Shown: in pieces, positions 308 through 28,171 of the stretch
How positions within the stretch are numbered: position 1 is the first letter of the stretch
Layout of the letters: every line of letters starts with the position of its first letter
Virus record (IMG/VR): IMGVR_UViG_3300021379_000692
Span: 1-29,551 of that record
Source: a virus
Strand: one strand, 5' to 3'
DNA length: 29,551 nucleotides
Made by a program: the position numbers and the translations under genes
Notes under the pieces: model-generated
What the model saw: the letters and a program-made list of their open reading frames with translations, nothing else
What the model was told of the DNA's origin: nothing
The model's database searches: none

Positions 308-1258
308 ATGAATAAATGGCTGGCACTTTTAACAGTATTGCCAACACTAGCATTAGCAGAAGATCCTCTCGCACTATATGAGGTTCCTACTACTAAATGG
401 ACTGGAGCTTTAGAATTAAACCGAGAGCCAGATCTAATTATAGATCTACCACCACAAGAAATACCTGCCACTGGTATGATTCCATATCGTTATGTGACAG
501 TAGATATTCCTCTCGAGGAAGATCGCTGGGTACAAGCAAGTGAATGGTTGCCTGGCGATAGGACTGTATTACACCACACGCTAAATCAATTAGTACCACC
601 TGATTCAAGACCTAGTTTTCAAGGCTTTCTTGGTAATCAATCTGGTAGGGACTCAGATCAAGTAGATTTGGCTGCATATGTTCCTGGTGGTACTGCTACA
701 GTTTTTCCTGAGAACACTGGTGGGTTACTGAAAGCAGGTTCAAGCCTACAACTGCAATTGCATTATACTACAAACGGTACAGCAGCAACTGATAATTCTA
801 AACTCGGTGTTTGGTTTTACCCAGAAGGCGAAGTACCTGAAGAAAGAATGACTGGTATGTGTGCTTGTATCTTCCCTGATGAATGGACAAACATTCCTCC
901 AGGCGATCCTAACTTTGTACAAACACAAAGCATTAATATCAGAAATGATATTGAACTACATACTTTCTTGCCTCATATGCACTGGAGAGGTAAGAGCATG
1001 AAGGCTGTAGCATATTATCCTGATGGTACACAAGAAGATTTAATCAATGTTGCTAACTACGATTATGATTGGCAACTTGCTTATACATGGGAAGAGCCTA
1101 AGTTTATTCCTGCAGGAACAACCATCACTGTAGATGGTGCTTTTGATAATTCAGCAATGAATCCTGCAAACCCAGATCCTGAGCGTTCAGTACCTTGGGG
1201 GCAAATGTCAGAGGACGAAATGTTCTTTGGCGCAATGACATGGAAAAACCTAAAATAA
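308..1258 (+). CDS. Secreted type II copper monooxygenase-like protein (PHM/DBH fold)
   Basis: 316 aa. AGGAG at 297-301 sits 6 nt before the ATG. Residues 1-17 look like a signal peptide (cleavage after ALA, before EDPL), so a periplasmic or membrane-exposed location is inferred. The body resembles the C-terminal part of bacterial proteins with the PHM-type ascorbate-dependent copper monooxygenase fold. The expected copper ligands can be placed: H89-H90 in VLHHTL, H152 in LQLHYTT, H222 and H224 in HTFLPHMHWRG, and probably M305 in DEMFFG. These match the 2His+His and His-x-His...Met pattern of the two copper sites. The redoxin domain often fused in bacterial relatives is absent. Substrate unknown. 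The final codons are repeated after copC (see repeats). A copper-binding, non-catalytic role is possible. Confidence 0.8.
   Translation: MNKWLALLTVLPTLALAEDPLALYEVPTTKWTGALELNREPDLIIDLPPQEIPATGMIPYRYVTVDIPLEEDRWVQASEWLPGDRTVLHHTLNQLVPPDSRPSFQGFLGNQSGRDSDQVDLAAYVPGGTATVFPENTGGLLKAGSSLQLQLHYTTNGTAATDNSKLGVWFYPEGEVPEERMTGMCACIFPDEWTNIPPGDPNFVQTQSINIRNDIELHTFLPHMHWRGKSMKAVAYYPDGTQEDLINVANYDYDWQLAYTWEEPKFIPAGTTITVDGAFDNSAMNPANPDPERSVPWGQMSEDEMFFGAMTWKNLK
1229..1258 (+). repeat. 30-bp direct repeat, copy 1 (end of copper monooxygenase-like gene)
   Basis: Begins GGCGCAATGACATGG and ends in the TAA stop. It matches 1617-1646 in 28 of 30 positions. The two copies flank copC. Recombination between them would remove copC and leave the monooxygenase-like gene intact in front of pqqA. 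Confidence 0.9.
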
Positions 1259-1610: not shown

Positions 1611-1646
1611 CTGTATGGCGCAATGACCTGGAAAAATCTAAAATAA
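1611..1646 (+). pseudogene. Orphan 3' end of a copper monooxygenase-like gene
   Basis: After the copC stop, one frame reads LYGAMTWKNLK-stop, almost identical to the FFGAMTWKNLK-stop that ends the gene at 308-1258. It has no start of its own in that frame and no upstream body, so it is a remnant, not a gene. Its stop codon is followed at once by the AAGGAG used by pqqA. This suggests that the ancestral order was monooxygenase-like gene directly followed by pqqA, with copC arriving later. Confidence 0.7.
1617..1646 (+). repeat. 30-bp direct repeat, copy 2 (before pqqA)
   Basis: Begins GGCGCAATGACCTGG and ends in TAA. It differs from copy 1 at two positions, both silent or conservative in the monooxygenase reading frame (ACA/ACC Thr; AAC/AAT Asn), as expected for a coding duplication that has drifted. 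Confidence 0.9.
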
Positions 1647-1656
1647 GGAGAAAGTT

Positions 1657-1728
1657 ATGTGGACTAAACCAACTTACGAAAAAATCCGTTTAGGATTTGA
1701 AGTAACAATGTATCGCAAGACAGTATGA
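1657..1728 (+). CDS. pqqA: PQQ precursor peptide PqqA
   Basis: 23 aa: MWTKPTYEKIRL followed by GFEVTMYRKTV. PqqA is the ribosomally made peptide whose Glu and Tyr side chains are cross-linked by PqqE (with PqqD) and processed into the cofactor pyrroloquinoline quinone. Seen: the diagnostic W2-x-K-P start and the G-F-E15-V-T-M-Y19 core, with Glu and Tyr three residues apart at the canonical positions, and the canonical length of 23-24 residues. A strong AAGGAG (1645-1650) sits 6 nt before the ATG. No pqqB, C, D or E is in the window, so the peptide would have to use host enzymes. It lies with copper and haem proteins in what looks like one operon. A chance match is unlikely given the ribosome binding site, length and motif. 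Confidence 0.88.
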   Translation: MWTKPTYEKIRLGFEVTMYRKTV

Positions 1729-5872: not shown

Positions 5873-6760
5873 ATGAAAATCAGATACTCTGAAACATTCT
5901 ATTCTTTCCAGGGCGAGGCAGAACTAGCCGGAACTCCTACTGTTTGGTTACGTTTTTTCGGATGTAACCTAGAGTGTAATGGTTTTGGACAGAAAAATCC
6001 TGCATTGCCAGAAAGTCATAAACTTCCATACAAAGAATTTGATCCCAATAGAATACGAACAGTCGAAGAACTTCCCGTATGGGAATATGGTTGTGATAGT
6101 TCTTATTCGTGGTCAATGAAATATAAACACCTAGCTAAGGACTCAACAGTTGAAGGTATTTGTGATGAACTAGAGTCTAAACTCCCATATGGTAGTTTTA
6201 TTAATCCTTTTACTGGACAAGAAAATATGTTGGCTTTTACTGGTGGTGAACCCATGTTACGCCAACGACACATGAAAGCAATAGTAGGCGAGTTTCTTCA
6301 TCGAGGTAATGTCCCTAAAATTATCACAGTAGAAACAAACGGTACAAAGCCTTTGAATCCTGATCTTCAAAACTATATCAATACATATTTGTCTGAAATG
6401 GGTATACGTTGGCATTGGGCTATCAGTCCAAAAATTTTGCATACTTCAGGTGAAAAAGATGCAGTTGATGTTGGTAATTTTATGTCATATGTTGACGGTG
6501 TTAAAGGCACATCTTGCATAAAATTTGTATGTAATGGCAGCACCGCCAGTTGGCGTGAGATCGCTCACTATAAAGATGAAATTATTGAATATTGTTTACA
6601 TGCTGAAATACCTGTTCCTGATATTTGGATTATGCCTGTAGGCGCTACAAAAGAAGAACAGGAAAAGGTTGCCAATATTTGCATCATGGCAATGCAACAA
6701 GGTTATAAAGTCGCTACGAGGAACCATGCTTATGTCTTTGGCAATCAAATCGGAACATAG
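5873..6760 (+). CDS. queE: 7-carboxy-7-deazaguanine synthase QueE (radical SAM)
   Basis: 295 aa. QueE converts 6-carboxy-tetrahydropterin to CDG, the step after QueD. Seen: YSETFYSFQGEAELAGTPTV (the SIQGEG-type start), RFFGCNLEC, GGEPMLRQ (SAM-binding GGE motif), VETNGT and WAISPKI, all in family order. The cluster motif is unusual: C31-x3-C35 is followed by F38 instead of Cys, and the expected C-D-[ST]-x-[YH]-[ST]-W appears 36 residues later as C74-DSSYSW. An insertion therefore splits the CX3CX2C motif, and C74 is the likely third ligand. No ribosome binding site is visible; the gene appears leaderless. It starts the deazaguanine block and is followed after 4 nt by a phosphoribosyltransferase. 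Confidence 0.9.
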   Translation: MKIRYSETFYSFQGEAELAGTPTVWLRFFGCNLECNGFGQKNPALPESHKLPYKEFDPNRIRTVEELPVWEYGCDSSYSWSMKYKHLAKDSTVEGICDELESKLPYGSFINPFTGQENMLAFTGGEPMLRQRHMKAIVGEFLHRGNVPKIITVETNGTKPLNPDLQNYINTYLSEMGIRWHWAISPKILHTSGEKDAVDVGNFMSYVDGVKGTSCIKFVCNGSTASWREIAHYKDEIIEYCLHAEIPVPDIWIMPVGATKEEQEKVANICIMAMQQGYKVATRNHAYVFGNQIGT

Positions 6761-6764
6761 CACC

Positions 6765-7172
6765 ATGTCAGTTGAATGGGATTACGTTGAAGTATTAGTA
6801 GAAGAGATATCTAAACGTATTAAAAGAAAAGAAATTGAATTTGACAATATTATAGGATTATCCAGAGGCGGACTTGTACCTGGAGTGATGCTGTCTCACG
6901 CTTTGGGTGTTAATTTTATTCCATTAGTGTGGCAAACAAGAGACGGTGATAAAAAAGACAGAGAACTCTTGTCTAAATATAATAGTAGCAAAACTCTTAT
7001 AGTGGATGATCTAGTTGATTCAGGAGAAACATTTTTTCAAGTAAAAGAAACTGCTCCTGACGTACAATATTGTGCATTATTTAATAAACAACCTTCAATA
7101 GCACTTGACTTTTGGGGTTCAACTTTATATAATGAAAGCAGATGGTTAGATTTTCCATGGGAGCTACAATGA
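6765..7172 (+). CDS. Phosphoribosyltransferase
   Basis: 135 aa from ATG 6765; the frame is open upstream inside queE, but MSVEWDYVEVLVEEISKRI gives a normal type I PRTase start. Seen: IIGLSRGGLVPGVMLSHALG (N-terminal strand and glycine turn), the PRPP-binding loop LIVDDLVDSGET, and a C-terminal W-LDFPWE that matches xanthine/hypoxanthine PRTases (stacking aromatic after the last strand). The probable reaction is joining a purine-like base to PRPP. Its place between queE and folE makes a role in the purine or deazapurine supply plausible, but salvage of guanine or xanthine is equally possible. The last four bases overlap the next gene (ATGA). Confidence 0.8.
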   Translation: MSVEWDYVEVLVEEISKRIKRKEIEFDNIIGLSRGGLVPGVMLSHALGVNFIPLVWQTRDGDKKDRELLSKYNSSKTLIVDDLVDSGETFFQVKETAPDVQYCALFNKQPSIALDFWGSTLYNESRWLDFPWELQ

Positions 7173-7354
7173 GAACTAGTGCAATACGTAAAGAAGTAAA
7201 TCCTAATATAAACGAATCAGATGTTATGTATGTGGTAGAGCTGTATGAAGATGGCGAACTAGTAGAAATGCGAGCATTGCCAAATAAAAGTATCCACTAT
7301 GCTAACGATGTGAGTGAAAATTGGAACAATGGAATCATCAAAAATGGTAAGTGA
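7169..7354 (+). CDS. Small phage protein of unknown function
   Basis: 61 aa, starting at the ATGA overlap with the phosphoribosyltransferase stop, with GGGAG just upstream. Seen: MRTSAIRKEVNPNINESDVM, VVELYEDGELVEMRALPNKS and a C-terminal ENWNNGIIKNGK. The VVELYEDGELVEMR hairpin is followed by a short helix-forming tail, suggesting a tiny beta domain. The family is not recognised. It overlaps the start of folE. Confidence 0.6.
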   Translation: MRTSAIRKEVNPNINESDVMYVVELYEDGELVEMRALPNKSIHYANDVSENWNNGIIKNGK

Positions 7355-8027
7355 TTTAATAAAATCTAGGCTAAAAAAAGCAGGCAAAAGATACTATGCC
7401 TCAGACAATATCGCTGAGTTTTTACACGAAGGTGAGAAGGAAAAACTAGTAGAAGAATTGACTGAAAAATTCAGTGGTGTTCTTGACAGTCTTGTTATTG
7501 ACAGTGACAACGATCCTAATTCACAAGGCACAGCAAAAAGATTAGCTAAAATGTATATCAATGAACTCATGTCGGGTCGTTATGACATGATGCCAAACGC
7601 TACAGCATTTCCTAATCATATAGATGATGGATTTGAAGGTATGCTTGTTGTTCGCAGCGAAATAACTTCAATGTGTTCACATCACCATCAACCCGTCAAA
7701 GGCGTAGCTTACATAGGTATCATTGCAGCGGATAAATTAATTGGTTTGTCTAAATATACACGTATAGCACAATGGTGTGCAAGACGAGGCACACTACAAG
7801 AAGAGTTGGCGAACGATATTGCTAGTGAAATTATGAAGGCTACTGGCAGTCAGAACTTAGGTGTTTATATACAGGCTACTCATGGCTGTGTAGAACACAG
7901 AGGTGTTCAAGCACACAGTTCTTTGACTCAGACAACGGTTCTTAAAGGTAGTTTCTTCAATGATGCGGGAACTAGGAAAGAATTTTTTGACAATATTAAA
8001 TTACAACAGGATCACGCTCCAAGATGA
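7329..8027 (+). CDS. folE: GTP cyclohydrolase I FolE
   Basis: 232 aa from ATG 7329 (in-frame ATG 7344 is an alternative). It converts GTP to dihydroneopterin triphosphate, the first step toward both folate and the 7-deazaguanines. Seen: SQGTAKRLAKMYINELMSGR, zinc/active-site CSHHHQPVKGVAYIGII, LSKYTRIAQWCARR, QEELANDIA and CVEHRGVQAHSS; zinc ligands are the two cysteines and the histidine of these motifs. The N-terminus (about 50 residues) is longer than the minimal catalytic core. Its position with QueE, QueD and DpdA points to DNA modification rather than folate. The stop overlaps the next start (ATGA). Confidence 0.95.
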   Translation: MESSKMVSDLIKSRLKKAGKRYYASDNIAEFLHEGEKEKLVEELTEKFSGVLDSLVIDSDNDPNSQGTAKRLAKMYINELMSGRYDMMPNATAFPNHIDDGFEGMLVVRSEITSMCSHHHQPVKGVAYIGIIAADKLIGLSKYTRIAQWCARRGTLQEELANDIASEIMKATGSQNLGVYIQATHGCVEHRGVQAHSSLTQTTVLKGSFFNDAGTRKEFFDNIKLQQDHAPR

Positions 8028-12649: not shown

Positions 12650-13574
12650 TGTATTAGTTACAGGTGGTAATGGTTACATAGGAACACAAACAGTCTTACA
12701 GTTGAAAGCTGCAGGTTATGAACCTATTGTTGTAGATTGGGTTGCAGACACAACTAAGAGCTCCTACACTTACTCATTCGATGATAATGCTGTTTTAGAT
12801 ATTATGAAACGGCACAACATCAAATCAGTGATACACTTTGCTGCTGACCATGAAGTAGGTCGCAGCGTTGAGGAACCATCAGTGTTTTACAACAATAATG
12901 TTGTCAGCAGTATCAAGTTTCTTGACAAGTGTATTCAAGCAGGGGTTGAAAAGTTTATCTTCAGTAGCTCTAGTAGTGTATATGGTGATGATCCAGAATT
13001 TCCTACAACAGAAAATAACAAAAAAAATCCTATGTCGCCTTATGGTAGAACAAAGGATATGTTTGAAGAGGTACTGTTAGATTACGATAGAGCTTACGGC
13101 ATCAAAACAATGTCTCTTAGGTACTTCAATGCTGCGGGTGCTGACCCTTTAAATAGGCATGGTTATTGTCAAGATACTTACTCACATCTGGTTCCTATTC
13201 TTGCTAGATGTTTCGGGCAGGATCTTCCTTTTACTATTTTTGGTAAAAACTATGACACCCCTGACGGAACTTGCATAAGAGACTATACCCATGTTTATGA
13301 TATTGCAGATGCACACATCAAAGCATTGGATTACGAAGGACCAGAAAGAGTATTTAATATAGGAAAAGGTAAAGGCGAAAGTGTTATAAATGTTATAAAT
13401 GCTTTTGAGGATTACACAGGAAAGAAAATACAAATAAATGTTACTGGAAGAAGAGAGGGGGATCCTGCAAAAACATTTGCAAACATAGATCTTGCAACTA
13501 ATTGTTTGAATTGGACTCCTATCTATTCAATTGAGGATATAGTCGAACACGCTTACAAGTGGGAGAACAGATGA
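12639..13574 (+). CDS. galE: UDP-glucose 4-epimerase-like SDR (GalE)
   Basis: 311 aa extended short-chain dehydrogenase. Seen: VTGGNGYIGTQT (NAD-binding GxxGxxG), VIHFAAD, SSSSSVYGDD (catalytic Ser region), SPYGRTKDMFE (catalytic Tyr-xxx-Lys), RYFNAAGAD, and DYTHVYDIADAHI, all GalE signatures. It interconverts UDP-glucose and UDP-galactose (possibly also the N-acetyl forms). It is slightly shorter than the 338-aa E. coli enzyme. It overlaps the glycosyltransferase upstream and queD downstream, so the sugar and deazaguanine genes share one transcript. Confidence 0.9.
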   Translation: MKDSVLVTGGNGYIGTQTVLQLKAAGYEPIVVDWVADTTKSSYTYSFDDNAVLDIMKRHNIKSVIHFAADHEVGRSVEEPSVFYNNNVVSSIKFLDKCIQAGVEKFIFSSSSSVYGDDPEFPTTENNKKNPMSPYGRTKDMFEEVLLDYDRAYGIKTMSLRYFNAAGADPLNRHGYCQDTYSHLVPILARCFGQDLPFTIFGKNYDTPDGTCIRDYTHVYDIADAHIKALDYEGPERVFNIGKGKGESVINVINAFEDYTGKKIQINVTGRREGDPAKTFANIDLATNCLNWTPIYSIEDIVEHAYKWENR

Positions 13575-14020
13575 AATATTATTCAACGAAAACGTATGGG
13601 CATGAACGTGGGTTGTCTTGTGTATTTAGACAACCTAATGCCACGCATAGCCATTGTTCACTGCTACACGGTTACTCATTAGGATTCAGTTTCAAGTTTG
13701 GTACTGAAGCCCTTGATGATAAAAACTGGGTAGTAGACTTTGGTGGCTTGAAAGAACTGAAAAATTGGTTAGAAGATACTTTTGACCACACAGTTGTTGC
13801 AGACAATAACGATCCACATCTCAAAGACTTGTTTGAACTACAAGAAAAAGGACTTGCTAAGGTTGTAGTTATGCGAGGTGTTGGTTGTGAAATGTTTGCA
13901 GAAGAAGCCTTTTGGGTAGCAGATAGTATAGTAAAAGAACTGACAAATGGTAGATGTCATTGTGTGTCGTGTGAAGTAAGGGAACACGGTGCCAACTCTG
14001 CTATATATGAGCGTGAATGA
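13571..14020 (+). CDS. queD: 6-carboxytetrahydropterin synthase QueD
   Basis: 149 aa. GGGAG (13561-13565) lies 5 nt before ATG 13571, which is chosen over an in-frame ATG at 13559. Seen: LSCVFRQPNATHSHCSLLHG (with the catalytic Cys and zinc His), HGYSLGFSFKF, VVDFGGLKELKNWLEDTFDH (the typical V-x-D-F...D-H) and CVSCEVREHGANSAIYE. Converts dihydroneopterin triphosphate from FolE into 6-carboxytetrahydropterin, the QueE substrate. The ATGA at its end couples it to gene 47. Confidence 0.92.
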   Translation: MKYYSTKTYGHERGLSCVFRQPNATHSHCSLLHGYSLGFSFKFGTEALDDKNWVVDFGGLKELKNWLEDTFDHTVVADNNDPHLKDLFELQEKGLAKVVVMRGVGCEMFAEEAFWVADSIVKELTNGRCHCVSCEVREHGANSAIYERE

Positions 14021-27005: not shown

Positions 27006-27431
27006 ATGATTGACCGTGATAATTTATTTGGTATTGATTATCCCGATTACCAACCGCTAGAAATATTATTAGAAGATCCTGAGAACTTTCTAAAAATTAA
27101 GGAAACTCTCTCACGGATAGGTGTCGCATCTAAAAAGGACAATACATTATACCAATCTTGCCACATACTTCACAAACAAGGAAGATATTTTATAACTCAC
27201 TTTAAAGAACTGTTTGCATTAGATGGAAAAGAAGCAGACTTTATGGAAAATGACCTGCAACGCAGGAACACTATTGCAAAACTTTTAGAGGAATGGGGAC
27301 TACTCAAAATTATTAGTGAAGGTGATTTGGATTACTGTCCTATGAGTCAAATTAAAATAATTTCTTATAGGGATAAAAATGATTGGAATTTGGTACCGAA
27401 ATATAATATAGGAAATAAAAGGCGAGCATGA
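27006..27431 (+). CDS. regA: Translational repressor RegA
   Basis: 141 aa (T4 122). AAGGAAA 7 nt before ATG 27006; an upstream ATG at 27001 is out of frame. RegA binds start regions of early mRNAs and blocks translation. Seen: an extra N-terminal MIDRDNLFGIDYPDYQP, then LEILLEDPENFLKIKETLSR, GVASKKDNTLYQSCHILHKQ, YFITHFKELFALDG, TIAKLLEEWGLLKII and NDWNLVPKYNIGN, matching T4 RegA throughout. The N-terminal extension of about 18 residues is unusual. Overlaps the desaturase by 4 nt. Confidence 0.95.
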   Translation: MIDRDNLFGIDYPDYQPLEILLEDPENFLKIKETLSRIGVASKKDNTLYQSCHILHKQGRYFITHFKELFALDGKEADFMENDLQRRNTIAKLLEEWGLLKIISEGDLDYCPMSQIKIISYRDKNDWNLVPKYNIGNKRRA

Positions 27432-28171
27432 GTCTTAGTAGGATGAAGTTTAAAGCTGCTATACTATCATTAGGGCAGTTATTGTTGTTACCTACAATTT
27501 ATCTAGTTTACACTAACCCACCAACAGCAGTGTGGTTATTTTTTACATTGGTGTTGTCTTACAAATTTGGCGTGTTTGGATGGGTGTTGGGTCAACACAG
27601 ATATTTTACTCATAAACAATTCAAAGTTTCTCCTTTTATGGAAAAGTGTTTGATGTTTTGGGCTGTGATGGGAACATGGCAAAGTCCTATGGAATGGGTG
27701 TGGAGTCACAATCATCATCACAAATATTCAGACACAGAGAACGATGTTCATAGTCCTAAATACTTAGGTTGGAAAAACTGGTTTTTCTTTTTTCATAAAA
27801 TAGATACTATGGAACCTGGCATAGCTATTTTAAGAATGGCAAAGTCACCTTGGCATCAGTTCTTTTTGAATTTTAAATATGGTATAATTTTTGGTTACGC
27901 TTTTATTTGTTATTATTTGTTTGGCATAATGGGATTGACATATGGTTGGTTGGTTCCAACATCATATGCAATGCTATCACAAATTATAATTGTTATGAAC
28001 CACAAAAATGGAGAACCTAAAAACTCATTTTTGATTGACTTATTTACATTGGGGGAAGGTCGGCACAAGGATCATCATAATAATCCTAAAGACTACTCCA
28101 AAGATAAATTTATAAAACCTGTGATAAAATTTATATCTTATGAAAACAATAAACATACATCTAGGGCTTGA
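27428..28171 (+). CDS. Membrane fatty-acid (acyl) desaturase
   Basis: 247 aa, compact for the family. Seen: hydrophobic helices near 10-50 and 145-185, and the three di-iron histidine boxes: HRYFTH (about 57-62), HNHHH (about 96-100) and RHKDHH (about 212-217). This is the delta-9 acyl-CoA/acyl-lipid desaturase pattern. It would introduce double bases no; it introduces double bonds into host lipid acyl chains, changing membrane fluidity during infection (inference). Desaturases are known auxiliary genes in marine T4-like phages. Coupled to regA by ATGA. Confidence 0.92.
   Translation: MSLSRMKFKAAILSLGQLLLLPTIYLVYTNPPTAVWLFFTLVLSYKFGVFGWVLGQHRYFTHKQFKVSPFMEKCLMFWAVMGTWQSPMEWVWSHNHHHKYSDTENDVHSPKYLGWKNWFFFFHKIDTMEPGIAILRMAKSPWHQFFLNFKYGIIFGYAFICYYLFGIMGLTYGWLVPTSYAMLSQIIIVMNHKNGEPKNSFLIDLFTLGEGRHKDHHNNPKDYSKDKFIKPVIKFISYENNKHTSRA

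Follow-up and report, generated by a model that had tools for sequence, protein, structure and literature searches.

The cofactor PQQ is built from a glutamate and a tyrosine of the peptide PqqA, which is bound by PqqD with a Kd of about 0.4 µM and cross-linked by PqqE (PMC10906245). In bacteria, pqqA (families PF08042 and TIGR02107) is the first gene of the pqq operon. A virus-encoded PqqA was reported in 2020 for the Lake Baikal virus population VP_266, a single case of a supposed methylotroph-infecting virus, for which PQQ supply was proposed and where a viral methanol dehydrogenase is described for the same viruses (PMC7678222). As virus-encoded pqqA also appears as a gene name in a 2026 reservoir study (PMC13188868), the remark of the initial annotation that no such described phage gene was known to it had to be dropped.

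The window, i.e. the whole stretch of DNA analysed here, is a 29,551-base virus fragment from IMG/VR with T4-type genes. Its pqqA (1657–1728, plus strand) comprises 72 bases, 23 codons read from ATG to TGA, and encodes the 23-aa peptide MWTKPTYEKIRLGFEVTMYRKTV; the strong RBS described at the outset was found as AGGAG (1646–1650, plus strand), 6 nt upstream of the ATG. The peptide scored above the curated cut-offs of both Pfam PF08042 (38.6 bits, E 9.8e-10, whole model covered; cut-off 21.1) and NCBIfam TIGR02107 (38.8 bits; cut-off 20), and the reactive pair E15 and Y19 shows the E-x3-Y spacing, as expected from the PqqA hallmarks that had been read from the sequence. No family for this peptide was found in PHROGs. 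Length, the W-x-K-P start and the R-x-G-F/M-E-V/I-T-x-Y core with E15 and Y19 are the same as in bacterial PqqA, whereas the phage gene differs in standing without pqqB–E. No partner gene adjoins it, the usual pqqB–E context being common and not part of the sequence definition of the family, and, as claimed before, there is no second pqq gene among the ORFs of the window, which as a 29.5-kb fragment says little about the rest of the genome. A chance ORF is excluded because pqqA recurs behind a homologous neighbour in several viral lineages, is under purifying selection and is found in 248 viral loci (see below), and 1657–1728 is confirmed to encode a true PqqA, the ribosomally made precursor of PQQ.

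A DNA-pattern scan of IMG/VR for W-x-K-P-x9-E-V-T-x-Y led to at least 120 stretches; of the 120 matches listed, 119 form a complete PqqA ORF whose stop always falls at the same position, and the remaining one (L017) is not a PqqA. In a separate scan for G-M-E-V/I-T, all matches (29/29) were complete PqqA-like ORFs, some with peptides of the alphaproteobacterial type; examples are L524, with a gp32-like gene nearby, and L535, with a DNA polymerase-like gene nearby, both neighbours being judged by eye. All scans of IMG/VR together, redundant contigs included, gave at least 248 viral loci with an intact pqqA and 98 distinct peptides, which is the outcome of the motif search among viral ORFs of 20–30 codons proposed in the initial annotation. 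Viral PqqA is always exactly 22 residues long from the W to the stop in the 248 loci, and a ribosome binding motif precedes 244 of these genes. This tiny gene, unannotated in most cases, proves to be widespread in aquatic phages. For 11 distinct copies, picked via neighbouring genes and not via PqqA, a simple pairwise count on these very short sequences, with no model, gave a pS of 0.528 against a pN of 0.067, showing that phage pqqA is under purifying selection. E15 and Y19 are kept in all 248 loci; variation at these residues in related phages had been named as evidence against a functional precursor, and even a scan with both positions left free returned E15 and Y19 only.

When annotated phages were searched by tblastn, 12 records with a PqqA match were obtained, the E-values being weak singly, from 0.06 to 0.6, as a query of 23 residues would lead one to expect; the peptides of the cultured phages exceed the PF08042 cut-off. 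Nine of the 12 records are phages of Methylophilales/Methylophilaceae, namely Venkman, four Melnitz variants, MEP301, MEP401, MEP402 and P19250A. Two matches named 'Acinetobacter phage MD-2021a' were set aside as bacterial, the one viewed carrying a pqq operon. All five OM43 phage isolates named in PMC10580990 (Venkman, MEP301, Melnitz, MEP401 and MEP402) contain pqqA, as does P19250A, and both short-tailed and myovirus groups are represented. The records viewed either lack an annotation of pqqA or have a hypothetical ORF on the opposite strand over it, in agreement with the earlier proposal that it is too short for usual gene calling. OM43 hosts depend on XoxF, a PQQ enzyme (PMC6794327, PMC5120137), and xoxF is the top transcript of the OM43 isolate NB0046 (PMC5120137).

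Profile searches of 50 pqqA-bearing phage records for PqqD, PqqE and PQQ-dependent alcohol dehydrogenase detected neither PqqD, nor PqqE over the cut-off, nor the dehydrogenase in any of them; complete isolate genomes are included and many of the records are fragmentary, so that a lone absence means little and the joint pattern is clear. The PqqE model weakly matched a protein on contig L037, at 27.7 bits against a cut-off of 381; this is probably a different radical SAM protein. Phages are thus shown to carry only the consumable substrate PqqA and neither PqqD nor PqqE, which strengthens a substrate-only logic. Unlike VP_266 with its viral methanol dehydrogenase, the phages of this set, from many groups, encode no PQQ alcohol dehydrogenase, and the lineage of the window is T4-like, carries copper genes and presumably has hosts other than OM43.

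In the window, pqqA is preceded on the plus strand by a SOUL haem-binding protein truncated at the contig end to its C-terminal part (2–298; PF04832, E 1.2e-17), an exported copper monooxygenase-like protein of putative PHM/DBH fold (308–1258) and a CopC-like periplasmic copper protein (1264–1608; PF04234, E 7e-15; same neighbourhood in L129–L132), and the four genes likely form a periplasmic redox cassette. The monooxygenase was assigned from an AlphaFold model (mean pLDDT 65, modest confidence) with PHM/DBH as the top 31 PDB matches, from a ligand alignment and from a weak match to Pfam Cu2_monoox_C below the cut-off. Residues H89, H90, H152 as well as H223, H225 and M305 are invariant across 13 phage homologues in the alignment, and we take them, by comparison with PHM, to be candidate copper ligands. 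An N-terminal cytochrome c motif (CxxCH) is present in most phage monooxygenases, and the bacterial homologues have a redoxin-like part in addition; the window protein has neither. Such putative PHM/DBH-fold proteins were seen in more than 100 viral contigs (window 308–1258 and viral loci L127–L206), and the annotated phage collection gave no match.

The monooxygenase gene is directly followed by pqqA in several lineages (L129–L132, L157–L158, L159–L165, L176–L195 and L196–L202) and in 33 of the 34 loci scored with both genes, the window being the exception because copC sits in between. The order monooxygenase–copC–pqqA of the window contrasts with monooxygenase–pqqA–copC in L131, and a 31-nt direct repeat on the plus strand has one copy at the 3' end of the monooxygenase gene (1228–1258) and a second one (94%) immediately upstream of pqqA (1616–1646); the monooxygenase/copC/pqqA unit was thus rearranged, most simply through recombination, with the second repeat copy as the scar. 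The close relatives L128 and L161 have neither copC nor pqqA, and in L127, the nearest relative of the window, pqqA is absent and a different micro-ORF occupies its site; judging from these gene contents, pqqA is an accessory gene gained and lost in the lineages of the window. At this site of L127 (6335–6364) the same RBS is followed by M-C-N-C-T-N-C-T-C, a cysteine-rich, possibly metal-binding peptide encoded beside copper genes.

The strict window-type PqqA pattern had no match in the genome contigs searched, and hosts were therefore sought via the adjacent monooxygenase. Its bacterial homologues belong to Gammaproteobacteria named OM182, Pseudohongiella, SAR86 cluster or Pseudomonadales; PqqA was found in nine of 30 genomes with a homologue and was absent in the other 21. 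Beside PqqA, the nine genomes have pqqB and often also pqqC or pqqD; all nine contain PqqE and 12–31 matches to the PQQ alcohol dehydrogenase (PQQ-ADH) family each. All 13 genomes examined have such matches (12 to 46 each), and in the genomes tested that lack PqqA, PqqE is absent as well (4/4). These OM182-like genomes (G001, G002, G010 and G024; loci L277, L278, L290 and L323), with 18–46 PQQ-ADH-family matches and no PqqA or PqqE found, apparently depend on imported PQQ; being MAGs, they may be incomplete. Alignment with bacterial PqqA, which had been suggested as a check, showed up to 22 of 23 residues identical to a phage copy (bacterial L357 against phage L196), and the best match to the window peptide was L365 with 83% (294 genomes sampled from its order). 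From neighbour-gene homology and PqqA similarity, the hosts of window-type phages are probably Gammaproteobacteria of the OM182/Pseudohongiella type. The supposition that the host has PQQ biosynthesis genes stands in so far as a pqq operon and PqqE occur in some lineages of this group, and fails for many relatives without PQQ synthesis.

We consider it probable that phage pqqA resupplies a consumed RiPP precursor, by which host PqqB–E keep making PQQ in infection. One PqqA is spent per PQQ, the enzymes being reusable and the peptide not, and a phage would for this reason carry only the consumable. In the pathway, PqqD presents PqqA to PqqE, which links E15 with Y19, and a protease, PqqB and PqqC complete PQQ. 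As host gene expression drops, phage pqqA would replace the spent peptide, host PqqB–E would thus go on producing PQQ during infection, and PQQ-dependent alcohol/methanol dehydrogenases (e.g. XoxF) as well as periplasmic electron flow would stay active in the infected cell. We infer the identity of the host, the expression of pqqA, its processing by host PqqD/E and the benefit to the phage, and a higher PQQ output would likewise be expected. Cyanophage psbA is an auxiliary gene of the same kind, resupplying a used-up component, the D1 protein, and relying on the host for the rest of the machinery; D1 is an enzyme protein subunit, whereas PqqA, a peptide of 23 aa, serves as the substrate in a RiPP pathway. 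Like other auxiliary metabolic genes, pqqA lies in real phage genomes, is host-like and is maintained by selection. In Gluconobacter, pqqA was second only to pqqB when single genes were expressed to raise PQQ, according to a result quoted in PMC7936290, and pqqA alone aids growth or product formation (PMC8102297). Against resupply, expression of the whole operon in Acetobacter raises PQQ far more than pqqAB in the data given in PMC7936290, so that PqqA need not be limiting; phage pqqA would be useless in hosts like the 21 genomes without PqqA, and it is dispensable in L127, L128 and L161.

A phage peptide might instead act as a decoy that occupies PqqD/PqqE and halts PQQ synthesis or draws off SAM, so that periplasmic oxidation in the host is shut down. 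The peptide is indeed encoded without any enzyme, and with its sub-micromolar affinity a short peptide could titrate PqqD (PMC10906245), but a decoy could do without one or the other of E15 and Y19, neither of which varies in the scan with free positions, and phage PqqA remains very near host PqqA. The invariant pair argues for a really cross-linked peptide and against a mere decoy, which we regard as unlikely. Similarly improbable is that extra PQQ serves purposes other than carbon oxidation, e.g. by being released to neighbours that require it or by protecting against oxidative stress: the four relatives without PqqE described above would need to import PQQ, but feeding neighbours gives the phage no direct advantage.

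PHM acts on peptides, and the direct succession of monooxygenase and pqqA in nearly all loci scored with both would fit a product other than PQQ, obtained through modification of a PqqA-derived peptide by this enzyme or another. However, the majority of viral pqqA genes have no neighbouring monooxygenase, a signal-peptide-like start is seen in the monooxygenase and not in PqqA, PqqA lacks a C-terminal glycine, and monooxygenase homologues exist in bacterial genomes without PqqA, making such a product very unlikely. Bacterial contamination or a neutral passenger from the host might be suspected, as IMG/VR includes some cellular contigs and the two 'Acinetobacter phage MD-2021a' matches look bacterial; with pqqA in fully sequenced phages of five cultured groups, T4-type genes beside the window copy and purifying selection, the likelihood is negligible, and contamination, chance and neutral passage were rejected.

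Resupply of the spent precursor thus stays the preferred reading, and on balance we favour its extension to a general strategy, in which very diverse phages independently keep a substrate-only supply of a ribosomally made cofactor precursor, probably near-universal in methylotroph phages and skipped by gene callers. The PQQ-using host groups would be OM43/LD28 methylotrophs, OM182/Pseudohongiella-like Gammaproteobacteria and bacteria with alphaproteobacterial-type PqqA. In the open-access literature, which leaves aside subscription papers and preprints, there was no report of pqqA as general in methylophages, of phage pqqA unaccompanied by the partner enzymes, or of the lineage with the copper cassette; the gene itself being known, its breadth and the substrate-only pattern appear new. 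The findings point to PQQ supply as a bottleneck for marine methylotrophs and other PQQ-dependent bacteria under infection, with the carrying of the substrate rather than the pathway as the cheapest remedy. The gene is also a case of auxiliary genes beneath the size limit of gene calling and a simple sequence marker of phages infecting PQQ-making hosts; as it occurs in phages already in culture, an effect on methanol oxidation during infection is directly testable.

Among the T4-type genes of the window are tail tube gp19 (2192–2776), UvsY, a UvsW-type helicase, SbcD-like gp47, a ClpP-like protease and the sliding clamp. Tail tube and clamp are less than 60% identical to every record of the annotated phage collection, so that the lineage has no close cultured relative there. 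The late-promoter-like motif TATAAATA has five matches, not clearly above chance and none immediately upstream of pqqA. Downstream of pqqA, a small, conserved, membrane-like ORF (1732–1848; MYGGIPLFSVFCLILIVCDTAIHVMIQMYFEGHPAFKD) contains an 18-nt inverted repeat (89%; 1732–1749/1783–1800), and its homologues directly follow the monooxygenase gene in the relatives L128, L161 and L133. QueE-like, GTP cyclohydrolase-like and QueD-like translations were recognized by eye only at 5873–8027 and 13559–14020, these queuosine/folate-type lookalikes being scattered across the T4-like region. In addition, a fatty acid desaturase (27428–28171; PF00487) is possibly another auxiliary gene.
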